Positions 615 to 11,956 of a stretch of 64,000 nucleotides of DNA are shown here, one piece after another. Numbering within the stretch: the first letter of the stretch is position 1; every line of letters begins with the position of its first letter. Source of the stretch: Desulfomicrobium baculatum DSM 4028 (GTDB taxonomy: Bacteria; Desulfobacterota; Desulfovibrionia; Desulfovibrionales; Desulfomicrobiaceae). The notes beneath the pieces are model-generated. The model was not told where the DNA came from. It saw only the letters and a list, made by a program, of their open reading frames with translations, and did not search any database. The stretch covers positions 2,606,501 through 2,670,500 of the forward strand of contig NC_013173.1 in the NCBI RefSeq assembly GCF_000023225.1. Reading direction: 5' to 3'. Made by a program: the position numbers and the translations under genes.

Positions 615-1847
615 GTGCTCAAACGGATTGAAGAATTGATCGGCACCAATTGCCCGGACCTGCCCTCCCTGCTGGACGGGCTGCCCGTTGGGGTGGCCCT
701 CCTGGACGAAGAGGGACATGTCCTCATGCTCAACAAGGCCCTCGAAGCTTTGACCGGCTACAACCGGGAAGAAGTGCGCGGACTGCCTTGCCGGCACGTC
801 CTGCGCAGCCGGGCCTGCCTGCAGGACTGCCCTCACGGGCGCGAGGCCGCTGCAGGAGTCGGAATTGAGACCGATTGCATCAACCGTCACCACCGCAAGA
901 TTCCCATCCGCATCACTCCGGTGCGCGTTCTGGACGGCAACAACCGCCCGATCTGCGTGCTCGATGTGGTTGAAGAATTGACGGCCTTGCGGGAAATTGA
1001 GGCGCGCCTGTCCCAAGCTGCGGATCATGGCCAGATTGTCGGACGCAGTCCGGCCATGAAAAAGATTCTCGGCCTTGTGCCGGTCATCGCCCAGCACGAC
1101 ACTGCGGTGCTGATCACCGGCGAGACAGGCACGGGCAAGGATCTTTTGGCCGAATCCGTGCACAAGGCTTCGCCCAGATCACGCGAACCCTTCGTGCGCT
1201 TCAGTTGCGGGCCTATGCCCTCCGAACTGCTCGACGCCGAACTGTTCGGACGCATGCAGGGACCCGACGGAGAGTTCAAGCCGGGCCGATTTCAGCAGGC
1301 TCAGGGCGGAACCCTGTACTTGTCGGAGATCGCGGATCTGCCGCTCTCCCAGCAAAGCAGTCTGGTCAGGTTTCTGGATGAAGGAACCATTCTGCCTGTC
1401 GGCGCGGGCAAACCCCTGCGCGCGAGCGCCCGGCTCATGGCTTCCACCGCCGAGTCACCGGAAAAACTGGTTCAGGACGGCCGTCTGCGGGAAGATCTTT
1501 TTCATCGCATTTCAGCCATCCGCCTGCACCTGCCCAGGCTCAAGGACCGCGCGGAAGACCTTGGATTTCTGTTGCACCATTTCATGGGCCATTATGCGGC
1601 GCGTTTCAAAAAGGATATCAGCGCCATCAGCCCAAGAGCCCAGCGCCATGTCTACGCCCACGATTTTCCGGGCAACGTGCGGGAACTCAAAAACATCATG
1701 GAATTTGCCGCCATGGTCTGCAACGGCGATACCATTCGGACCGAACACCTGCCCATGCATTTGACCGACGACGTCGAGCCTGAATCGGTTGTCCGACCGG
1801 TGGAGAAAGGCCGCAAAGCCGGCCGCAAGAACACAGAGGAGCGATAG
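615..1847 (+). CDS. PAS-AAA protein related to sigma-54 activators but lacking GAFTGA and the DNA-binding domain
   Basis: 410 residues starting at GTG with AGGAGAG just upstream. An N-terminal PAS domain (about 15-120) carries C59, C68, C72 and C88. An AAA+ domain follows (about 135-370) with an intact Walker A (GETGTGKD) and a normal RxDLFHR region. Where sigma-54 activators have GAFTGA after ELFG, this protein reads RMQGPDGEFKPG. The Walker B Asp-Glu is changed to Ser-Glu (LYLSEI). After the NVREL region the protein ends in a basic tail (GRKAGRKNTEER) with no Fis-type helix-turn-helix. It therefore should not open sigma-54 promoters by the usual mechanism and may instead act as a sensor or as a partner of another activator. 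The next gene starts 3 bp downstream. Confidence 0.8.
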   Translation: MLKRIEELIGTNCPDLPSLLDGLPVGVALLDEEGHVLMLNKALEALTGYNREEVRGLPCRHVLRSRACLQDCPHGREAAAGVGIETDCINRHHRKIPIRITPVRVLDGNNRPICVLDVVEELTALREIEARLSQAADHGQIVGRSPAMKKILGLVPVIAQHDTAVLITGETGTGKDLLAESVHKASPRSREPFVRFSCGPMPSELLDAELFGRMQGPDGEFKPGRFQQAQGGTLYLSEIADLPLSQQSSLVRFLDEGTILPVGAGKPLRASARLMASTAESPEKLVQDGRLREDLFHRISAIRLHLPRLKDRAEDLGFLLHHFMGHYAARFKKDISAISPRAQRHVYAHDFPGNVRELKNIMEFAAMVCNGDTIRTEHLPMHLTDDVEPESVVRPVEKGRKAGRKNTEER

Positions 1848-1849
1848 CA

Positions 1850-2203
1850 ATGGAACGCCGCGTGCTGATCACCGTCGCCAAGGACGAAATCGCCCCTCGC
1901 TTCGATCTGACGACCGAAGCGCTGTTGCTGACCATTTCCGATGGTGGAGAAATCGTCTTGCGCAAGTCCTTTCTTCTGGCTTACGCTTCCGGAGACGAAC
2001 TGTGCGACCTGGCCCTTTCCCGGGACATCGGGACCATCGTCTGCGGAGGCATTGAGGACGAGTATTACCACTATCTGCGCTGGAAGCGCATCGACGTCAT
2101 CGACTCGGTCATGGGTCCGGTGGAACGCGTTGTCTCCCGCCTGACGGAAGGAGCACTCAAAGCCGGAGACATTCTCTACGACCGGGCAATGGAAACGACA
2201 TGA
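1850..2203 (+). CDS. NifX/NifB-fold (dinitrogenase Fe-Mo cofactor-like) small protein
   Basis: 117 residues. The N-terminus (RRVLITVAKDEIAPRFDL) has the alternating hydrophobic pattern and the (I/V)APRFD motif of the NifX/NafY superfamily, whose members bind or carry iron-sulfur or iron-molybdenum clusters. The C-terminal half (GTIVCGGIEDEYYHYL, then a helix ending near VSRLTEGAL) fits the ribonuclease-H-like fold. One Cys lies in the GTIVCGGI strand and could serve in ligand binding. It sits 3 bp after the degenerate activator and overlaps the kinase gene by 4 bp (ATGA), so translation is probably coupled. In ORP loci similar proteins accompany sigma-54 regulators; its exact ligand is unknown. 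Confidence 0.75.
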   Translation: MERRVLITVAKDEIAPRFDLTTEALLLTISDGGEIVLRKSFLLAYASGDELCDLALSRDIGTIVCGGIEDEYYHYLRWKRIDVIDSVMGPVERVVSRLTEGALKAGDILYDRAMETT

Positions 2204-3915
2204 AAAAAATCCTGTCCGGCCCCATGGAAGCCATCAAGGCCGATCTGGCCACGGTGATCAATTCTCCCGACCGCTATAAGCTGCTGCGGCGCAAGATCGT
2301 CTCGCTCATGGCCCTGGTCACGCTGCTCCCGCTGCTCTCGCTGGCCGCAATAAACTATTACGAACACCAGAACTCCATGTCGGCCGAAATCCAGGCCCCG
2401 TTGCGCTCGCTGGTGGGCAAGGCCAAGCATTCTTTCGAGCTGTTCCTGGCCGAACGAACCTCGGCCATCAGCTTTATCGCCTCGGCCTACTCTTTCGACG
2501 AGCTCTCAAATGACGCCAATCTGCAGCGCATCTTTCAGGTCATGCGCCGCGAATTCACCGGGTTTGTGGATCTCGGACTCATCGATGTGGCCGGCAACCA
2601 GGTCAGCTATGCGGGTCCGTACGATCTCAAAGACCGCAATTACACGTCCCAGGACTGGTTCCACCAGGTCCAGTTCAAGGGCACGTATATCAGTGACGTG
2701 TTCCTGGGTTTCCGCAAATTTCCCCATGTGGTCATCGCGGTGCGACACACCACAGAAAGCGGCCAGTCGTGGATTCTGCGCGCCACCCTCGACACCATGC
2801 ATTTCGACCGCATCATCTCGGCCATGGGCCTGGAACCAGGCAGCGACGCTTTTCTGGTCAACCGCAACGGAATCCTGCAAACCGAATCTCGTCGTTACGG
2901 CAAGGTGCTGGACATGTTGCCCTTCGACCTGCCCCCAACAAATTTTGAATCCAACGTGCAGGGCATCCGCGACCCCGATCAAAACGACATCTTCATCGCC
3001 TCGGCTTTCATCGCCGACTCGGATTTCGCCCTCGTGGCCGTCAAGCTCAAGCCGACGGCCTTCAGCACCTGGTACACGGTGCGCCTGGACCTGCTCGTCA
3101 TATTTGTCACCGGCGTCATTTTCATCTTCATGGCCGTCTACCGCTTGACCAGCGTGCTGATCAACCGTCTGCAGGAGAGCGACGAGCAACGCCTGGGCGC
3201 CATCCACCAGATGGAACATTCCCAAAAGCTGTCCTCCATCGGTCGCCTGGCCGCGGGCGTCGCGCATGAAATCAACAACCCCCTGGCCATCATCAACGAA
3301 AAGGCCGGACTCATGCGCGATATCATGGAACTCAGGCCCGATTTTCCGGAAAAAGATAAATTCTCCAAACAAATCGAGTCCATCCTCAGATCCGTGGACC
3401 GTTGCCGGGGCATCACCCATCGCATGCTCGGCTTTGCCAAGCGCATGGATGTAAAGATCGAAATTCTGGACCTGAACGCCGTGCTGGAGGAGACCCTCGG
3501 TTTTCTGGAACGCGAGGCCCAATACCGCAACGTGGAACTAAAGCGTGAACTGTCCAAGAACCTGCCAAGCATCGCCACCGATCACGGCCAGATCCAGCAG
3601 GTCTTCCTGAACATTTTGAACAACGCCCTGGCCGCCGTGCCCGACGGAGGACGAATCGTGCTCTCGAGCTGGAACGTGGACGATCATTACGTCGCCATTT
3701 CCATCGAGGACAACGGTTGCGGCATGTCCGAGGAAACGGCCAAAAACATGTTTGAACCGTTTTTCACCACCAAAAAAGAAAAAGGCACCGGGCTCGGCAT
3801 GTCCATCACGTACGGCATCGTCAAACGCCTGGGCGGAGAGATCAAGGTCAAGAGCAAACTGAACGAGGGCACCACAATGACCATCCTGCTGCCCAAACAC
3901 CCCGTGGAAGGTTAA
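2200..3915 (+). CDS. Membrane sensor histidine kinase with a periplasmic Cache-type domain
   Basis: 571 residues. A first membrane helix lies at about 33-53 and a second at about 295-318. They enclose a 240-residue periplasmic region of double-Cache (dCache) character (YTSQDWFHQV, SQSWILRATLD-like strands) that would bind a small ligand. The cytoplasmic part has a HisKA helix with His356 in GVAHEINNPL and a HATPase_c domain with the N box (LNILNNALAAV), DNGCGM and the GTGLGMSI G2 box. It should autophosphorylate and pass phosphate to one or more of the four receivers in the same operon. The gene overlaps the upstream stop by 4 bp and is followed after 2 bp by a receiver gene. Confidence 0.92.
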   Translation: MKKILSGPMEAIKADLATVINSPDRYKLLRRKIVSLMALVTLLPLLSLAAINYYEHQNSMSAEIQAPLRSLVGKAKHSFELFLAERTSAISFIASAYSFDELSNDANLQRIFQVMRREFTGFVDLGLIDVAGNQVSYAGPYDLKDRNYTSQDWFHQVQFKGTYISDVFLGFRKFPHVVIAVRHTTESGQSWILRATLDTMHFDRIISAMGLEPGSDAFLVNRNGILQTESRRYGKVLDMLPFDLPPTNFESNVQGIRDPDQNDIFIASAFIADSDFALVAVKLKPTAFSTWYTVRLDLLVIFVTGVIFIFMAVYRLTSVLINRLQESDEQRLGAIHQMEHSQKLSSIGRLAAGVAHEINNPLAIINEKAGLMRDIMELRPDFPEKDKFSKQIESILRSVDRCRGITHRMLGFAKRMDVKIEILDLNAVLEETLGFLEREAQYRNVELKRELSKNLPSIATDHGQIQQVFLNILNNALAAVPDGGRIVLSSWNVDDHYVAISIEDNGCGMSEETAKNMFEPFFTTKKEKGTGLGMSITYGIVKRLGGEIKVKSKLNEGTTMTILLPKHPVEG

Positions 3916-3917
3916 TC

Positions 3918-4310
3918 ATGGATATGAATACATGGAACATCCTCTTGGTGGACGATGAAGTCGATTTCATCGTCACCCTGGCCGAACGTCTGGAACTCAG
4001 AGGAGTCAACGCCCGGGTTGTCCATGACGGAGAAGCGGCGCTGAAGGCCGTGGCCGACAATGTGCCGCAGGTGATTGTTTTGGACGTCATGATGCCGGGA
4101 ATGAAAGGAATCGAAGTCCTGCAGAAGGTCAAAAGCGAACACCCCAAGGTCAAGGTCATCCTGCTCACCGGACAGGGCAAGACGCGCGACGGGATAGAAG
4201 GCATGCACCACGGCGCCTTCGCCTATCTGACGAAACCCCTTGACCTTGAAGAACTTATCCGAACCATCGACGAGGCCATAAGCGAACCCGAAGGAACTCC
4301 ACATGCCTGA
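3918..4310 (+). CDS. Single-domain response regulator (CheY-like)
   Basis: 130 residues making up only a receiver domain. The acidic pocket VDDE (11-14), the phosphoacceptor Asp56 in VLDVMMPG, the Thr of LLTGQG and the Lys of LTKPLD are all in place. There is no output domain, so it must work through a partner or as a phosphate shuttle. It lies between the Cache kinase and the half-kinase protein, overlapping the latter by 8 bp, an arrangement expected of a phosphorelay intermediate. ATG is placed after GGAAGG; a second in-frame ATG lies two codons later. Confidence 0.93.
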   Translation: MDMNTWNILLVDDEVDFIVTLAERLELRGVNARVVHDGEAALKAVADNVPQVIVLDVMMPGMKGIEVLQKVKSEHPKVKVILLTGQGKTRDGIEGMHHGAFAYLTKPLDLEELIRTIDEAISEPEGTPHA

Positions 4311-4929
4311 AATCCCGAAAGAAGCGCGTTTCATGGGCACTGTCACGGCTCAGACCATGCATGAAATGCAAAACATCCTGGCCATTATCCGCGAATCGGC
4401 GGGACTCATGGGCGACATCCTCAAAGTCAACTCCAGGGTTGATTTCAAGCACAAGCCCAACATGGAACGGACCCTTGAGAACATCACCTTCCAGGTGGAC
4501 CGGGGCAAAGGGTTGCTCGACGCCACCAGCCGTCTGGCCCACACGCCGGACGCGGACCTGCTCGAAGGCTGCGACCTGACCGCCTACTCCAAAACCCTGG
4601 TCCAGTTGGCGGATCGTTACGTACGCTTGAAGGGCACGGCCTTGAACTTCAGCGCCCCGTCCACGGCACTGCCTGTTTCCATGGGCGCCCTGCAGGTGCT
4701 CATGAGCGGTTACAGGGCCCTGCAATGGGCGGTGGGTGCGGGCATGAAAGACGGCGTGATGCGTGTCGACCTCGAAGGCGGAACAGACTTTCATGTCCTG
4801 ACCATCTGTCCCCCGGAAGGGGTCACTCCCGACCGGGAGGGAATCGCCGCTTTGGGGACGATGCTTGAACCGGGACGCGTGGAATGGGACGGCAGTCGGC
4901 TGCAACTCTTTTTCCCCGTTCAGCGCTAA
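4303..4929 (+). CDS. Histidine-kinase-like dimerisation/phosphotransfer protein without a working ATPase domain
   Basis: 208 residues. The first 60 residues match a HisKA helix pair: His20 sits in MHEMQNILAIIRESAGL, which parallels the HEINNPLAIINEKAGL box of the neighbouring kinase. The rest is the size of a HATPase domain but has no recognisable N box Asn, no DxGxG and no G2 glycine loop. Features like these are known in ChpT and Spo0B, which are phosphotransferases that evolved from kinases and dimerise through the HisKA helices. I infer that this protein shuttles phosphate between the receivers on either side of it (3918-4310 and 4953-5336). It has no membrane segment. An inactive kinase acting as a scaffold is the alternative. 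Confidence 0.7.
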   Translation: MPEIPKEARFMGTVTAQTMHEMQNILAIIRESAGLMGDILKVNSRVDFKHKPNMERTLENITFQVDRGKGLLDATSRLAHTPDADLLEGCDLTAYSKTLVQLADRYVRLKGTALNFSAPSTALPVSMGALQVLMSGYRALQWAVGAGMKDGVMRVDLEGGTDFHVLTICPPEGVTPDREGIAALGTMLEPGRVEWDGSRLQLFFPVQR

Positions 4930-4952: not shown

Positions 4953-5336
4953 ATGGACGAACCCAGCATTTTACTCATCGATGATGAAGAGGCATTCGTG
5001 ACCACGCTGCAAGAGCGGCTAGAGATGCGCGGATTCTCCGCCGCTGTTGCGTTTGACGGCCAAAGCGGGCTGGACATGATCGCCACGAACCCACCCGATG
5101 TGGTCGTGCTTGACCTGCGCATGCCGGGGATCAGCGGGGTGGAAGTATTGCGCCGCATTCGCAAGCAGTGGCCCGGTCTCCCCGTGATCATGCTCAGCGG
5201 CCATGGTTCGGACCTGGATTTTGAGACCTGCATTCATCTCGGGGCGGCGATGTACCACAAAAAACCCTTGGACATCAGTACGCTGATCGACAGCGTCCAC
5301 GCCGTGACCCAAGGCAAACAACAGCCTTTGCGGTAG
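4953..5336 (+). CDS. Single-domain response regulator (CheY-like)
   Basis: 127 residues from the ATG that follows AGGAGC; a longer frame upstream (from 4884) lies inside the preceding gene and is not needed. The receiver signature is complete: IDDEE (9-13), phosphoacceptor Asp54 in VLDLRMPG, LSGHGS, and Lys in YHKKPLD. There is no output domain. It follows the half-kinase gene by 23 bp and precedes the receiver-kinase hybrid by 6 bp. It could be the acceptor of the half-kinase or a phosphate sink; the sequence does not say which. Confidence 0.92.
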   Translation: MDEPSILLIDDEEAFVTTLQERLEMRGFSAAVAFDGQSGLDMIATNPPDVVVLDLRMPGISGVEVLRRIRKQWPGLPVIMLSGHGSDLDFETCIHLGAAMYHKKPLDISTLIDSVHAVTQGKQQPLR

Positions 5337-5342
5337 AACGAT

Positions 5343-6491
5343 ATGGTACGAGTCCTGGTCGTTGATGACGAACGCGATTTCACGGATCTGCTCTCCGAGC
5401 GGCTGCGCACGCGCGGCATGGAGGTCAGGACAGCGTACAACGGGCAGGAGGCATTGGACGTCGCGCGGATCTTTGCACCGGAGGTCGTGGTGCTCGACAT
5501 CACCATGCCGGGCATGAGCGGGATTGAAACCATGTACGCGCTGCGAGCCGAAAAGCCCGCGCCGGAAGTGATTCTGCTCACGGCAGACACCACCCTGGGC
5601 ACGGCTGTCGCCGGAATGAAAGGCGGCGCGCGGGATTACCTGACCAAGCCGACCGACATAGACACCCTTGTGTCGGCCATCGGGGAGGCCGAAGGGCGAC
5701 GGATGGAAAACATGTCCAGGCAGCGCATGGCGGAAACGGCCAAGCTTGCCGCCCTGGGAGAACTGGCTACCGGCGTGGCCCACGAGATCAACAACCCGTT
5801 GCAGGTGATACTCAATGAAGCGGGCTGGATCGAAGAAATCCTGGGCGAAACGGCCCTTGAGGGCAACAGCCGGGAACAGATTCTTGAATCCATCGCCCTG
5901 ATCCGGCGTCAGGGCCTGCGCTGCAAGGCCATCACCTCCAAGCTGCTGACTTTGCGGTGCGCCCTGGACGCAAAAGGAGCGACCACGAATTTGCCCGATC
6001 TGGTGCACGAAGTTCTCATTGCGCGCCGGGCGCAAATCGAAAAGATGGGCATCCGGGTCGAAAAGCACTGGCCGGAGCAGTTGCGCGAAGTGAAGCTGCC
6101 GGATTCGGAATGGAGCCAGATCCTTGGCAACCTTGTCGACAATGCCATGGACGCCCTCGAATCGACGCCCGCCGAAGAACGTCTGCTGACGATTCAGGCC
6201 GACGTCGACGATGCGGAGCTCATTATTTCGGTTCAGGATTCGGGCTGCGGTATCGAAGAGCATCTCTTGACGCGAATTTTCGAACCCTTTTTCTCCACCA
6301 AGGAGGTGGGCAAGGGAATTGGACTGGGGCTGGCTATTTGTCACGGCATCATCGAGGCCATGGGAGGGAGCATCTCCGTGCGCAGCACCCCTGGGCATGG
6401 ATCGACCTTCACCATAAAGGTGCCCATGGCCGTGCATGCGCACAACGAACATAACGGGCCGGAAAACCCGGCATCTGCCAAGGAGGAATGA
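5343..6491 (+). CDS. Hybrid receiver-histidine kinase, soluble
   Basis: 382 residues. An N-terminal receiver domain (1-120) has VDDE and phosphoacceptor Asp52 in VLDITMPG. It is joined to a HisKA domain with His147 in GVAHEINNPLQVIL and a complete HATPase_c (NLVDNAMDAL, DSGCGI, GIGLGLAI). There are no membrane helices, so its input is phosphorylation of the N-terminal receiver rather than an outside ligand. This REC-kinase order is typical of second-tier kinases that integrate upstream phosphorelay output. The Shine-Dalgarno is weak. The stop codon overlaps the first possible ATG of the next gene. Confidence 0.92.
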   Translation: MVRVLVVDDERDFTDLLSERLRTRGMEVRTAYNGQEALDVARIFAPEVVVLDITMPGMSGIETMYALRAEKPAPEVILLTADTTLGTAVAGMKGGARDYLTKPTDIDTLVSAIGEAEGRRMENMSRQRMAETAKLAALGELATGVAHEINNPLQVILNEAGWIEEILGETALEGNSREQILESIALIRRQGLRCKAITSKLLTLRCALDAKGATTNLPDLVHEVLIARRAQIEKMGIRVEKHWPEQLREVKLPDSEWSQILGNLVDNAMDALESTPAEERLLTIQADVDDAELIISVQDSGCGIEEHLLTRIFEPFFSTKEVGKGIGLGLAICHGIIEAMGGSISVRSTPGHGSTFTIKVPMAVHAHNEHNGPENPASAKEE

Positions 6492-6493
6492 AC

Positions 6494-6913
6494 ATGAACA
6501 AGATGAAGCTTCTGATCGTGGACGACGAGAAGGATCTGTGCCGCATTCTCGCCGACCGCCTCAATATTCTTTACGGTGTGTCCCCGGATGTGGCCCATAC
6601 CGGCGACGACGCCCTGGAGATGGTCAAGAAAAAGAGCTATGATGTCGTGGTCCTCGACATCGAAATGCCCGGCATCGACGGCATCGAGACCCTGAAACAG
6701 ATCAAGGCCATCAACTCCAAGATCCAGGTCGTGCTCTTCACCGGACACGGCAGCGAGGAGACCCGCCGCCTGGCCGAGGTCATGGGCGCGTTCAGCTATG
6801 TCGACAAGATCGACGGTCTGCCGAAACTCGCCCCCATGATCGAGGGCGCCTTCCGTCTGCGCAAGGTGCTTGAAGACACCTACGCCGACGCGGCCATGAA
6901 CGAGTACAACTAA
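6494..6913 (+). CDS. Single-domain response regulator, last gene of the signalling operon
   Basis: 139 residues. I start it at 6494 because AGGAGG (6481-6486) sits 7 bp from that ATG; an ATG at 6488 lies only 1 bp from the same site. Receiver motifs: VDDE (9-12), phosphoacceptor Asp55 in VVLDIEMPG, FTGHGS, and Lys in VDKIDG where the usual Lys-Pro is Lys-Ile. The C-terminal tail (residues 120-139) is acidic and ends AMNEYN. No output domain is present. It is probably the final acceptor of the hybrid kinase encoded immediately upstream. A strong hairpin follows within 3 bp of the stop. Confidence 0.9.
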   Translation: MNKMKLLIVDDEKDLCRILADRLNILYGVSPDVAHTGDDALEMVKKKSYDVVVLDIEMPGIDGIETLKQIKAINSKIQVVLFTGHGSEETRRLAEVMGAFSYVDKIDGLPKLAPMIEGAFRLRKVLEDTYADAAMNEYN

Positions 6914-6971: not shown

Positions 6972-7331
6972 TCAACCCATTCCGTACAGCACGCACAAAA
7001 GGTTCATGGCTTTGGCACCGTCATCCCACTTCGGGTTTGCCGGCACGGCACAAAGCACCCCGAGCCCCTCGCTGTCCTCGTGAAACGCTTCCTCGCCCAT
7101 GTCCGTGATGACCACGGTGTTCAGCATGGCGTTCACGCGAAGCAAATCCATCACAAATTTTTTGTAGTCCATCCCGGGGGTCATCGCGTCGACCACGACA
7201 AGCTGCCAGGGCGGGGTTGTTGCACGACCGAGAACATCTTCCGCGCTCTTCGCCCACTCGACATCGCCCCCCAGTCCCTGCGCGAATTCGTGCAGTGCCT
7301 CATTCCGTTCGGTGACAATGACCACCTGCAT
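6972..7331 (-). CDS. Receiver-like orphan protein at the end of the ORP-like operon
   Basis: 119 residues from the ATG preceded by GAAGGAG; a TTG five codons upstream is less likely. The fold pattern is that of a response-regulator receiver: MQVVIVTERNE at the start, VVVDAMTPGMD holding an Asp at the phosphoacceptor strand, then VVITDMG. The usual N-terminal acidic pair is replaced by TERNE, and the conserved Lys near the C-terminus is not obvious (AVPANPKW). It may therefore not be phosphorylated normally. It lies beyond a terminator-like hairpin that follows the NifX gene, so it is expressed either by read-through or separately. Function unknown; cross-talk with the converging phosphorelay is possible. 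Confidence 0.65.
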   Translation of the reverse strand: MQVVIVTERNEALHEFAQGLGGDVEWAKSAEDVLGRATTPPWQLVVVDAMTPGMDYKKFVMDLLRVNAMLNTVVITDMGEEAFHEDSEGLGVLCAVPANPKWDDGAKAMNLLCVLYGMG

Positions 7332-7353
7332 GTCGTTCTCCTTCAAGGAAGCT

Positions 7354-7398
7354 TAAAAAAATGGCCGGGCGATCTCCAGAGGCGAAATCGTCCGGCCG
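7354..7398 (-). terminator. Rho-independent terminator after the NifX-type gene
   Basis: Read on the - strand, GGCCGGACGAT pairs with ATCGCCCGGCC around a 13-nt loop and is followed by seven T residues (7361-7355). It sits between the NifX-type gene (ends 7408) and the receiver-like gene (starts 7331), so it may attenuate rather than fully stop transcription. Confidence 0.75.
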
Positions 7399-7407
7399 GG
7401 AGGATGG

Positions 7408-7785
7408 CTATTGACCACCGCCGCAGGTGTATTCCTGGGTGAAAGGCACCAACGCGCCCTTCAGAAGCGCGTCCACGGCTGTTCCGACACTCGGCGCGCC
7501 GGCGCCATAAAAAACCTGGATGCCGACCTGATTGAATCCCATCAGCGGACGCATGCCCATGCCGCCGGCGATGAGCAGGTTGACCCCGTTGCTGGCCAAA
7601 TGCTGGACCGGGGCCATGCATCCGCCCTGGGCGTGAGGGACGTTGGGCAGGGTGCTGACCTGGGCCACGGAACCGGCCTCGACGTCAATGATGGTGTACA
7701 GGTCGCAATGCCCGAAATGGGCGCCGACTTCCGCTTCAAGTCCGCCCGGAAGCGCCGAGGGGACTGCAATTCTGACTTTTTCCAT
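7408..7785 (-). CDS. NifX/ORP-type cluster-binding protein
   Basis: 125 residues from the ATG at 7785 (AAGGAG upstream). An upstream GTG at 7812 would add a segment that does not look conserved. The protein shows the NifB/NifX-family pattern: RIAVPSALPGGL at the start, AHFGHCDLYTII, a cysteine in GGCMAPVQHL, LIAGGMGMRPL, and a C-terminal tail EYTCGGGQ. The HFGHC motif and the last Cys resemble metal-binding positions in the orange protein of Desulfovibrio, which carries a Mo-Cu-sulfide cluster. It is the downstream partner of two ferredoxin-MinD ATPases, as in ORP operons. The actual cofactor cannot be told from sequence. Confidence 0.78.
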   Translation of the reverse strand: MEKVRIAVPSALPGGLEAEVGAHFGHCDLYTIIDVEAGSVAQVSTLPNVPHAQGGCMAPVQHLASNGVNLLIAGGMGMRPLMGFNQVGIQVFYGAGAPSVGTAVDALLKGALVPFTQEYTCGGGQ

Positions 7786-7812
7786 AAACGTGTTTCTCCT
7801 TGTTCGATACAC

Positions 7813-8685
7813 TTATGATTGCAAAAGATTCGTGATCGTCTGCCACGCCTGCCGAACCTGCGTGGCGATGGCGCTGTCTTCACCTTCGGTAATGGCCTGC
7901 CGCCGGACCATGGCTTCGGTGACCGCCGTGTCATGAGGCAGCAAAGCAGCCAGTGTGTACCCCTTTTCCTTGCACAGCGCACCAATTCGACTTGTTTGCT
8001 CGGGATTGAGGTCATGCTTGTTGACCACGACGGCGACTCTGGTGCGAAAATGATCGCACAGGCTGGCCACCCGTTCCAGATCGTGCACGCCCGACGGAGT
8101 GGGTTCGGTCACGACCACGGCCAGATCCGTCTGCGAAAGGGAGGCGATGACCGGGCAGCCGATGCCCGGCGCGCCGTCACACAAAATAAGCTCCAGGCCG
8201 CGCTCTTCGGCGAGTACCCGGGCTTCCTTCTTCAGGCGCGAAACCAGAAGGCCCGAGTTTTCCTGTCCGGGGAAAAGCTGCGCATGCACCATCGGGCCGA
8301 ACCGGGTCTCGCTCATGTAATGCTGCCCGCAATGCCTTGCGGGAAAATCTATGGCCTGTTCAGGGCAGAACGCCACGCAGACCTTGCACCCTTCGCAGCG
8401 CAGCGGGGCGACGCTGAAAACACCGTCCTTCTCGTCGATGGCGTCGTACCGGCACATGGATGCGCAGAGGCCGCAGCCCGTGCATTTTTCAGGATCGATG
8501 ACCGCTTCATGTCCGGAAATGAACCTCTCATCGCGGATGATGGTGGGGTCCAGCAAAAGATGCAGATCCGGCGCGTCCACATCCAGGTCGCAGATCACCT
8601 TGCTCTCGGCCAAGTGGGCGAACGCCGCCGTCAGGGAGGTTTTCCCGGTGCCGCCCTTGCCGCTGATCACAACTACCTCACGCAT
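7813..8685 (-). CDS. MinD/ParA-type P-loop ATPase with a two-cluster ferredoxin insert
   Basis: 290 residues. The deviant Walker A (SGKGGTGKTS, residues 8-17) with its signature Lys places it in the MinD/Mrp ATPase family. Residues 63-115 are a ferredoxin insert with two full four-Cys motifs (CTGCGLCASMC and CEGCKVCVAFC) for two [4Fe-4S] clusters. A switch region follows (DGAPGIGCPV). It pairs with the adjacent homologue (8678-9547), with which it overlaps by 8 bp, as the DVU2103/DVU2104 pair of the D. vulgaris ORP complex does. There such ATPases are tied to the orange protein and to septum placement. A role in cluster assembly or division here is inferred. Confidence 0.88.
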   Translation of the reverse strand: MREVVVISGKGGTGKTSLTAAFAHLAESKVICDLDVDAPDLHLLLDPTIIRDERFISGHEAVIDPEKCTGCGLCASMCRYDAIDEKDGVFSVAPLRCEGCKVCVAFCPEQAIDFPARHCGQHYMSETRFGPMVHAQLFPGQENSGLLVSRLKKEARVLAEERGLELILCDGAPGIGCPVIASLSQTDLAVVVTEPTPSGVHDLERVASLCDHFRTRVAVVVNKHDLNPEQTSRIGALCKEKGYTLAALLPHDTAVTEAMVRRQAITEGEDSAIATQVRQAWQTITNLLQS

Positions 8686-9547
8686 GGCGGACCTCCTTGG
8701 CTAGCTGACGCAAGTCCCGGCCCAGCTTGGAAAACAGCTCGCCCAGATCCGCATCCAGTTCGGCCAGGATAAATCCCTTGGAATAATGCTCCGCGATGTC
8801 GCGGCGATAGGGGATTTCCGCCAGGATCGGCAGGTTCTGGACCGCGCAGAATTCGTAGACACGATGGTCACCCAGGCCGGCCCGATTGATGACCACGGCG
8901 ATGGGCTTCTCGTAAGGGGAGAAGGCTTCCCAGGCCAGTTTGAAATCATGAAATCCGAACGGAGTGGGCTCGGTGACAAGCACGATGACATCGCTGTCGG
9001 CCACCGCGCTCATGGCCGGGCAGCTCACCCCGGGAGGGGCATCGACCAGCACGTCCATGGACTTGGCGGCACTTTCCGCGCGCATGCACGAACGCACGTA
9101 GCGCATGAGCGGCGGGCTCATGGCCTCGCCGACTCGCAGCCGTCCGGTCAGGCACGGCAGCGTGCCGCGGACAACGCCGCGCTCCATGACGCCAAGCTCA
9201 CGCATGCCCACGCCGATGGCGCCTTCGGGACAGATGGCCATGCACCCGCCGCAGCCGTGACACATCTCCGGAAAGGTCATGATGGCCTTGCCCATGACCG
9301 CGATGGCCTTGAACTGGCACAGTTCCGCGCACTTGCGGCAGTATGTGCATTTGCTCTCGTCCACTTCGGGGACTTCTATGGTCACGACTTCGGTGTCCGT
9401 GACCTCAGGTTTCAAAAAAAGATGAAGATTTGGCTCTTCCACATCCAGATCAACGGCCATCACAGGCCGTGACCACGACACGGCCAGCGAGGCCGTGACC
9501 GTGGTCTTGCCCGTGCCGCCCTTTCCGCTGGCAACCGATACGATCAT
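8678..9547 (-). CDS. MinD/ParA-type P-loop ATPase with a two-cluster ferredoxin insert (second copy)
   Basis: 289 residues and the same architecture as its neighbour: Walker A SGKGGTGKTT near the N-terminus, then a ferredoxin insert with CTYCRKCAELC and CHGCGGCMAIC, then VDAPPGVSCPA. The two proteins are clearly paralogous but diverged, which suggests a heterodimer. The start ATG follows GGATG. The stop overlaps the start of the next gene (ATG at 8685), indicating translational coupling. In the family, ATP binding drives dimerisation and hand-over of a cluster or movement on a surface; which applies here is unknown. Confidence 0.88.
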   Translation of the reverse strand: MIVSVASGKGGTGKTTVTASLAVSWSRPVMAVDLDVEEPNLHLFLKPEVTDTEVVTIEVPEVDESKCTYCRKCAELCQFKAIAVMGKAIMTFPEMCHGCGGCMAICPEGAIGVGMRELGVMERGVVRGTLPCLTGRLRVGEAMSPPLMRYVRSCMRAESAAKSMDVLVDAPPGVSCPAMSAVADSDVIVLVTEPTPFGFHDFKLAWEAFSPYEKPIAVVINRAGLGDHRVYEFCAVQNLPILAEIPYRRDIAEHYSKGFILAELDADLGELFSKLGRDLRQLAKEVRHA

Positions 9548-9556
9548 GGTGACATC

Positions 9557-10249
9557 CTATCTGTTTGGAGAGTCCGTGAATTCAACCTTGCCGGCCTTGA
9601 ACGCTTCCACCGCATCGGCCACGGTGCCGCCGTTCATGTTGTGGCCGATCTTCACGCCTCCACCCTTGAGGGCTGTAAACGCCTTGGGCCCGACGCTGCC
9701 GGTCAGAAGCACCGAGGCTCCGGCATTGATGATGTTTTCGGCGGCCTGAATGCCGGCCCCGTGCGACAGGGTCTGGGAGCCGCCGTTGTCGATGTACGTA
9801 GATTCCATGGTCTCAAGGTCGACGACGACAAATCCCGCGGCCCGCCCAAAACGCGGATCAACGCGATCAGTCATGCTCGGGCCTTCACTAGTTATGGCTA
9901 TCTTGGTCATGCTAAGCTCCTTGCTGCGGGCCGCCACACGGTCCGGATACAGTTGTAGACACGGCATCTTGGCATCATGGGCGATGTGCAGAGCAAGCCC
10001 CTCCACCAGCGCCTTGGTCACGACGCGACGGGCATCGCCAAGGATACGGCCGAAGGTGTGCCGGGAGACGTGCATGCGCTCGGCACCCTCTTCCATGCTC
10101 AGGCCCTCGTAGTCGGCCAGGCGCAGGGCTTCAAAACCGTCCATGGTCAGATATACTTCCGTCAGTTCGCGCAGGGGAATTCCCTGCGGCTTGAAAAACG
10201 ACGCCTTGGGACATCCTTCGATGCGGCGACATTTCCTGGGTCGTGGCAT
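9557..10249 (-). CDS. DUF134 DNA-binding domain fused to a NifX-type domain
   Basis: 230 residues with GGAGG before ATG. Residues 1-105 are a DUF134 domain (MPRPRKCRRIEGCP, then a helix-turn-helix SMEEGAERMHVSRHTFGRIL). Residues 114-230 are a NifX-type domain (MTKIAITSEG, DPRFGRAAGFVVVD, NAGASVLLTGSVG). The join is unusual: ATG at 9910 (residue 114) has its own AAGGAG 6 bp upstream, so a separate NifX protein could be made from the same message. Fusing the two links a possible cluster sensor to a DNA-binding domain. It lies 9 bp before the MinD pair in the same operon. Confidence 0.85.
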   Translation of the reverse strand: MPRPRKCRRIEGCPKASFFKPQGIPLRELTEVYLTMDGFEALRLADYEGLSMEEGAERMHVSRHTFGRILGDARRVVTKALVEGLALHIAHDAKMPCLQLYPDRVAARSKELSMTKIAITSEGPSMTDRVDPRFGRAAGFVVVDLETMESTYIDNGGSQTLSHGAGIQAAENIINAGASVLLTGSVGPKAFTALKGGGVKIGHNMNGGTVADAVEAFKAGKVEFTDSPNR

Positions 10250-11302: not shown

Positions 11303-11956
11303 ATGTTTGTCGGGCTCAAAATGCTAAAGAATTTCATAGCGATGCCGCCGGAAGCACTGGTCGAGGACGCGCAGCGGCTCATGGACGAGCAGCAACTCTG
11401 GATGCTGTTCGTGGTCAAGGGCGGAAAACTGGTCGGATACGTTCGCACCGAAGACATCAGCGCGGCCATGCCTTCGCTCGTGACGGGACTGGACAAGCAC
11501 GAGATCAACTACCTCCTGTCCAAACTGACCGTCAGCCGGATCATGCGCACGGACATCACCCCCGTCACCCCCGAAACGGAAATCGAGACCGCCGCCATGC
11601 TCATGCACGCCAAGAACCTGGCCGGACTCGCCGTGGTCAACCCGGACGGCGATCTCATCGGCTACATCAACCGCACGGTCATGCTCGAAGTGCTGGCCGA
11701 GGAGATGGGCTTCGGCCAGGGCGGTTCGCGTATCGTCTTCGAGGTCGTGGACAGGCCCGGCGTGCTCAAGGAAGTCTCGGGCATCATCGACGCCATGGGC
11801 TACTCCATCATCTCCACCGGGACATTTACCCACAAGGAACGCCGCATGGTCGTCATCCGCGTGGACACGCCCAATCCATCATCCATTGCGGCAGCATTGC
11901 AGAAAACCGGATACGATGTGGTCGGGCCCGAGGATTTCAAGCATGAATGGCAGTAG
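11303..11956 (+). CDS. CBS-CBS-ACT domain ligand-sensing protein
   Basis: 217 residues. Two CBS motifs form a Bateman module (residues about 5-55 and 75-130), followed by an ACT domain (about 142-215; RIVFEVVDRPGVLKEVSGII). This is AcuB-like architecture. CBS pairs bind adenine nucleotides or CoA derivatives, and ACT domains bind amino acids or related acids, so the protein probably reports substrate or energy state to the acyl-CoA ligases and transporter encoded with it. Start follows AAAAGGAG. It overlaps the LivG gene by 14 bp. No enzyme motif is present. Confidence 0.88.
   Translation: MFVGLKMLKNFIAMPPEALVEDAQRLMDEQQLWMLFVVKGGKLVGYVRTEDISAAMPSLVTGLDKHEINYLLSKLTVSRIMRTDITPVTPETEIETAAMLMHAKNLAGLAVVNPDGDLIGYINRTVMLEVLAEEMGFGQGGSRIVFEVVDRPGVLKEVSGIIDAMGYSIISTGTFTHKERRMVVIRVDTPNPSSIAAALQKTGYDVVGPEDFKHEWQ

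Follow-up and report, generated by a model that had tools for sequence, protein, structure and literature searches.

A family of predicted kinase-derived histidine phosphotransferases encoded next to a Cache sensor kinase in Desulfomicrobium baculatum and its relatives

To our knowledge, few phosphotransferases derived from histidine kinases are known, namely Spo0B, ChpT, and PhyT. ChpT of Caulobacter crescentus is described as a soluble protein that consists of a DHp hairpin and an atypical Bergerat domain, has no autokinase activity, and shuttles phosphate by means of one histidine (PMC3433190). The Spo0B relay of Bacillus is described as a kinase, the single-domain receiver Spo0F, the phosphotransferase, and a second receiver (PMC11210211). 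The Spo0B gene adjoins the genes of ObgE, L21, and L27 (PMC6136694). In Sphingomonas melonis, PhyT/PhyP is described as a degenerate kinase that functions as a phosphotransferase between the single-domain receiver SdrG and PhyR (PMC5898713).

In this work we analyzed a 208-aa protein encoded in the genome of Desulfomicrobium baculatum DSM 4028. The window, i.e., the whole stretch of DNA under analysis, is 64,000 nucleotides long (NC_013173.1, positions 2,606,501 to 2,670,500 of the forward strand), and all coordinates below refer to it unless a related locus is named. Judging from sequence comparisons and a structural model, the protein is probably a histidine phosphotransferase that carries phosphate between the receiver REC1 and a downstream receiver. 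The features of the locus are as follows.

615..1847, plus strand: PAS and sigma54-activator AAA+ protein, upstream, without a receiver; possible output side
1850..2203, plus strand: small protein between the activator and the sensor kinase, weakly similar to the dinitrogenase FeMo-cofactor family (Pfam E 0.0014, below the cut-off)
2200..3915, plus strand: intact membrane-bound sensor histidine kinase of the Cache type; proposed source of phosphate (Pfam, genome search)
3918..4310, plus strand: REC1, single-domain receiver with a canonical active site; proposed intermediate in the role of Spo0F or SdrG (Pfam, catalytic residues)
4303..4929, plus strand: proposed histidine phosphotransferase, 208 aa, DHp hairpin and degenerate CA domain (ORF, alignments, model)
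4318..4539, plus strand: DHp helical hairpin, residues 6-42 and 48-79 (AlphaFold2 secondary structure)
4360..4362, plus strand: codon of His20, predicted phosphoacceptor in the HEMQN box (invariant, aligned to the kinase H-box)
4540..4542, plus strand: codon of His80, second invariant histidine, at the junction of DHp and CA
4555..4926, plus strand: degenerate CA domain of the Bergerat fold (residues 85-208), lacking the N, G1, F, and G2 motifs
4953..5336, plus strand: REC2, single-domain receiver with T replaced by S; proposed second partner
5343..6491, plus strand: REC-HisKA-HATPase protein (REC-kinase), an intact kinase with an N-terminal receiver; accessory
6488..6913, plus strand: REC4, single-domain receiver, 4-bp overlap with the REC-kinase gene

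The 208-aa ORF is intact. As originally predicted, it is flanked by two single-domain receivers and overlaps one of them: its start shares 8 bp with the end of REC1, and REC2 starts 23 bp past its end. An alternative in-frame ATG for REC2 at 4884 is less likely to be the start than that at 4953, because the latter is preceded by AGGAG, which resembles a ribosome-binding site. The Cache kinase is matched by the Pfam models HisKA, HATPase_c, and dCache_1, the last with E 3e-10 and 40.5 bits, just under the 45-bit cut-off.

In its own genome (a single contig of 3,942,657 bases), the closest other match to the 208-aa protein is the adjacent Cache kinase, with 33% identity over residues 10-116 (E 6.3e-9). 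The only further match is a paralogous kinase with E 8.8e-4. Pfam gave no match to the window protein, and NCBIfam no meaningful one (a Rid-family match with E 0.094 is due to chance); when this single protein was used as the query for a scan of contigs, no relatives were found. In the family as a whole, the Pfam model HisKA matches 61 of the 75 aligned members up to E 1, the best with E 4.3e-7.

The family alignment has 75 rows, which are the window protein and the proteins from 74 of 79 related loci. Four short sequences were left out (L065, L076, L106, and L110; the histidine is visible in them too), as well as L111, the one locus of the 79 that has no stand-alone family ORF. Identity to the window protein drops to 14% across the alignment, and seven residues are invariant in all rows: H20, N24, I29, L35, D38, H80, and R105. 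In the 15 close orthologues, the window protein included, H20, E21, Q23, and N24 are kept without exception. Poor conservation of His20 among orthologues had been set beforehand as evidence against the original prediction; it is invariant in 75/75. The proposed alignment of its HEMQN box with the HEINN box of the neighboring Cache kinase was borne out as well. The motif around H80, at the DHp-CA junction, resembles FAHxxD.

The claim that the ATPase boxes are missing also holds, and for the family rather than for one protein. The Asn of the N-box, the Asp and Gly of G1, the F-P-F of the F-box, and the glycines of G2 are present in 68 of 68 Cache kinases from the same loci; in the family, no conserved residue occupies the corresponding positions, and 70 of its 75 rows have gaps in the columns of the F-box. 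Of the features of a histidine kinase, the phosphoacceptor histidine of the H-box in a DHp hairpin is present, while the ATP-binding N, G1, F, and G2 motifs are absent. The proline at H+5 behaves similarly, being present in 68/68 partner kinases and replaced in 75/75 family members (by V in 30, I in 28, H in 10, T in 3, A in 2, C in 1, and M in 1). By comparison, the residue at H+1 is acidic in all 75 rows (E in 73, D in 2), and H+4 is N in all of them. We also considered that the protein might be a kinase whose ATP site is unusual, and rejected this because all four motifs are lost across the family.

The family profile matches the full catalytic core of ThkA (positions 3-173, E 4e-13), whereas a PDB search with the single window sequence gave only chance matches of ubiquitin type and the like. 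The AlphaFold2 monomer model, built from the 75-row alignment, has pLDDT 92.8 and pTM 0.88; helices 6-42 and 48-79 are followed by an alpha/beta domain that spans residues ~85-208. Foldseek matched the model to histidine kinase cores and to 4fpp, titled 'Bacterial phosphotransferase' (E 7.3e-8, TM 0.51/0.51), which we take to be ChpT. For residues 85-208, VIA-align gave the best Z of 16.0 to the CA domain of ThkA (rmsd 2.6, 121 residues aligned); the match to DivL (4q20) has Z 15.2, rmsd 2.4, and 121 aligned residues. Spo0B is not among the 50 Foldseek or 50 VIA-align matches listed, which carries no weight against a likeness to it. According to the model, a DHp hairpin is followed by a dead CA domain, and this layout is the one described for ChpT. 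The original prediction of a kinase reduced to a HisKA dimer therefore has to be amended. The derivation from a kinase and the retention of the DHp stand, but both the profile and the model have a degenerate ATPase-fold domain in the second half, and the structural comparison that had been proposed as a check speaks for a ChpT-like plan and against a bare HisKA dimer.

The likeness to ChpT, as far as the monomer model goes, lies in the combination of a DHp hairpin and an atypical Bergerat domain (ChpT is a homodimer, the hairpins of which make up a four-helix bundle). The likeness does not extend to sequence. The Pfam ChpT model PF10090 (HPTransfase) matched 2 of 75 family members with the best E of 0.075, the window protein not being one of them, and there is no ChpT model among the 25 of 85 NCBIfam families listed for family members. 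Unlike ChpT, the family protein has the adjacent Cache kinase as its closest relative by sequence in the genome. Moreover, ChpT receives phosphate from the hybrid kinase CckA, whereas here a free single-domain receiver stands between. The proposed relay has the logic of the Spo0B relay; the gene order of the family fits a place after a single-domain receiver that is fed by sensor kinases. The Spo0B gene, however, lies outside a signaling operon and the family gene within one; no SPOB model is among the 25 of 37 Pfam families listed, and the window protein has none. The SdrG-PhyT relay logic likewise resembles the proposed step from REC1 to His20. PhyT is, however, an alphaproteobacterial membrane protein with an HRxxN box, and the family protein is soluble, has an HExxN box, and is encoded in the operon of a sensor kinase. 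The features of PhyT (a membrane anchor, HRxxN, and phyR as a neighbor) are absent here, the box being HEMQN and the neighbors different. The first modeled helix, which begins at residue 6, is already the DHp helix, so that a membrane or sensor domain could not be accommodated. A canonical HPt domain, a monomeric four-helix bundle, fits no better: the window protein has no Pfam match of this kind, and its model is a hairpin with an alpha/beta domain. Thus of the predicted likeness to ChpT and Spo0B, the likeness in type of function is well supported (an invariant histidine, a lost ATP site and H+5 proline, a ChpT-like plan in a confident model, and near-constant receivers), and kinship with ChpT by sequence is not.

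Gene order was compared across the related loci, counting in each case those with enough flanking DNA. A receiver-only ORF ends at most 150 nt before the start of the family gene in 65 of 73 loci (at least 450 nt of upstream DNA); for non-signaling genes in the same signaling-rich loci, the control value is 23/168. In 62 of 64 loci (at least 2500 nt of upstream DNA), the end of a Cache kinase lies no more than 700 nt before the family gene, and both the Cache kinase and the adjoining receiver are found in 58/64. In four loci (L083, L092, L095, and L101) the family gene follows the kinase directly, with no receiver between. On the downstream side, 51 of 64 loci have a receiver that begins within 1200 nt, and the other 13 have no same-strand receiver-only ORF starting within 1.2 kb; a REC-kinase is found within 3 kb in 20/58. 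The order is thus almost always a Cache kinase, a canonical single-domain receiver, and the family protein, usually with more receivers after it. The invariance of H20 and the recurrence of this order in most of the 79 loci are beyond chance.

The upstream receivers are uniformly canonical, with Asp/Asp/Asp/Lys in 67/67 active sites and Thr or Ser in 67/67. Of 60 first receivers downstream, nine (in L042, L043, L045, L046, L048, L050, L068, L077, and L081) have no phosphoacceptor Asp, and therefore the second partner in these loci must be another receiver. The second downstream receivers that were included are canonical, with the Asp in 31/31. Sixteen of the 79 loci encode a fusion of a receiver with a cytidylate-kinase-like domain (PF13189); examples are L080 6844-8067, L086 6696-8045, L067 951-2192, and L100 5525-6742, and such fusions are a possible enzyme output.

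Other genes near the relay recur to different degrees. The sigma54 activator without a receiver and the small FeMo-cofactor-like protein each have relatives in 47/79 loci. The activator at 615-1847 has no DNA-binding (Fis/HTH) Pfam match, unlike the nearby activator L112 7316-8722, which has one. Just upstream of the relay genes are a TauE/SafE exporter and a 139-aa membrane protein (184-603 and L112 8641-9654), the latter protein with relatives in 25/79 loci. On the minus strand, 6972-10249 encodes a degenerate 124-aa receiver, FeMo-cofactor-type proteins, two ferredoxin-MinD ATPases, and a DUF134 protein, a cluster that is presumably Orange-protein-like; four of the 79 loci have relatives of all its five genes in the flanking DNA analyzed. 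A CBS-ACT domain protein is encoded at 11303-11956.

DHp helix 1 is near-identical between the family protein and the adjacent kinase, and the residues that face a receiver are largely common to both. Among 63 pairs of a family protein and its own Cache kinase, the residues are identical at H+9 in 62, at H+15 and H+18 in 63 each, at H+7 in 54, at H+8 in 48, and at H+11 in 45, and in none of the pairs at H+3, H+5, H+12, and H+17. Compared with the REC-kinase of the same locus, identity is found in 0/20 at H+15, H+11, and H+7, in 1/20 at H+9, in 10/20 at H+8, and in 13/20 at H+18. H+15 is Leu on both sides in all 63 Cache kinase pairs; in the window genome the family protein and its neighbor kinase have Leu, and three other Cache kinases and the REC-kinase have Trp. 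We take H+8, H+11, and H+15 to be the positions at which HK853 was rewired (the mutants are named in PDB titles); all three are identical to the partner kinase in only 32/63 pairs. These similarities hint that the family protein and the Cache kinase both bind REC1, but inheritance rather than selection may explain part of them. On the receiver side, the alpha-1 specificity positions (V13, L14, I17, and N21 of RR468) of REC1 are identical to those of the first downstream receiver at 3.08 of 4 on average (n=40; 12 of 60 unresolved were dropped), to those of the second at 2.67 (n=30), and to those of the REC-kinase receiver at 2.21 (n=19). This ranking counts as weak support; whole-domain identities (40.7, 44.6, and 44.2%, respectively) do not reproduce it.

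In the GTDB family of D. baculatum, the gene is present in 15 of 22 genomes. An orthologous kinase (at least 66% identity) is found in 16 genomes, and 15 of these carry the family gene; in the 16th, the kinase runs to the contig end. Two more genomes (G016 and G018) have a more distant kinase, with 45 and 50% identity, and a weak family match beside it, and four have neither gene. With a cut-off of E 1e-37, the family was matched in at least 45 of 297 genomes across the phylum. None of the open frames with these matches exceeds 360 aa, and in two of the 45 a stop codon interrupts the match; the count of 45 is a lower bound, as weaker matches are mixed with full kinases. A tree of 90 sampled rows (36 of 75 family members, 31 of 69 Cache kinases, 19 of 22 REC-kinases, and 4 of 4 other kinases) separates all 36 family rows from the others by a branch with 100/100 support, and another branch (97/100) separates the REC-kinases. 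The conversion appears to be old and widespread in Desulfobacterota, as relatives come from several orders and from some Nitrospirota. Origin by duplication of the very neighbor kinase is not proven, because the 90-row tree has no outgroup that would fix its root.

The same features can be read in other ways. The protein could be a receiver phosphatase, the DHp of which drains REC1~P to inorganic phosphate. This reading retains some weight because the acidic residue at H+1 and the Asn at H+4 remain in all 75 members, and some clostridial orphan kinase-like phosphotransfer proteins are described as phosphatases (PMC11210211). However, in VicK, albeit a distant kinase, the H+5 proline is required for autokinase and phosphatase activity, and P222A abolished the latter (PMC3582566); the family-wide loss of this proline therefore speaks against both activities. 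The further receivers encoded downstream in 51/64 loci do not fit a phosphate drain either. A phosphatase would not strictly require the histidine, which is invariant, and we regard this function as unlikely.

Two other readings are less probable still. As a substrate subunit, the protein would form a heterodimer with the Cache kinase, be phosphorylated in trans by its CA domain, and then feed REC1. The kinase is indeed its closest genome relative with a near-identical DHp helix 1, but this kinase is a complete membrane protein that has a DHp of its own, and neither H+3 nor H+5, next to the phosphoacceptor, is shared in any of the 63 pairs, so that we consider such a role quite improbable. Least probable, and very much so, is a DivL-like pseudokinase scaffold that binds receivers with no phosphate chemistry, despite the absent ATP site and the match to the DivL fold. 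DivL has Tyr in place of the phosphoacceptor His, whereas the family keeps the His while diverging to 14% identity.

For the preferred reading, that of a phosphotransferase, we propose the following scheme. The Cache kinase would autophosphorylate and then phosphorylate REC1. The family protein would be a dimeric histidine phosphotransferase derived from the copied core of a sensor kinase; REC1~P would dock on its DHp bundle, and the phosphate would move to His20. From His20 it would pass to a second receiver, which may be REC2 at this locus and, at others, a different receiver or one fused to an enzyme. The CA domain, being dead, would no longer bind ATP; its probable role is in docking receivers or in stability. 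The receivers that follow the family gene at this locus are single-domain receivers and the REC-kinase only. The likeliest circuit would run from the Cache kinase through REC1 and His20 to REC2, with the logic of Spo0F-Spo0B and SdrG-PhyT. It is thus reasonable to infer, as originally predicted, that the 208-aa protein is the central shuttle of the relay. More tentatively, the locus may represent an unrecognized four-step phosphorelay module that is old in sulfate reducers and their relatives and, in part of its range, ends on an enzyme (the PF13189 fusions) rather than on DNA.

The family has no name in Pfam or NCBIfam, and by sequence it is not a member of the ChpT family. Neither the family nor the operon is described in the published titles and abstracts covered, which are mostly outside the subscription literature, and the passages covered from papers on regulation in Desulfovibrio vulgaris mention no such phosphotransferase. 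We read it as a separate predicted family of kinase-derived histidine phosphotransferases, i.e., a further conversion beside ChpT, Spo0B, and PhyT. Since it adjoins its closest kinase relative, it is a good case of a two-component system growing into a relay. The comparison points to the residues that changed in the conversion of a kinase to a shuttle (H+3, H+5, H+12, and H+17) and to those kept for receiver docking (H+9, H+15, and H+18). It also marks genes unnamed by Pfam and NCBIfam as likely relay parts in bacteria that are relevant to sulfur cycling and corrosion.
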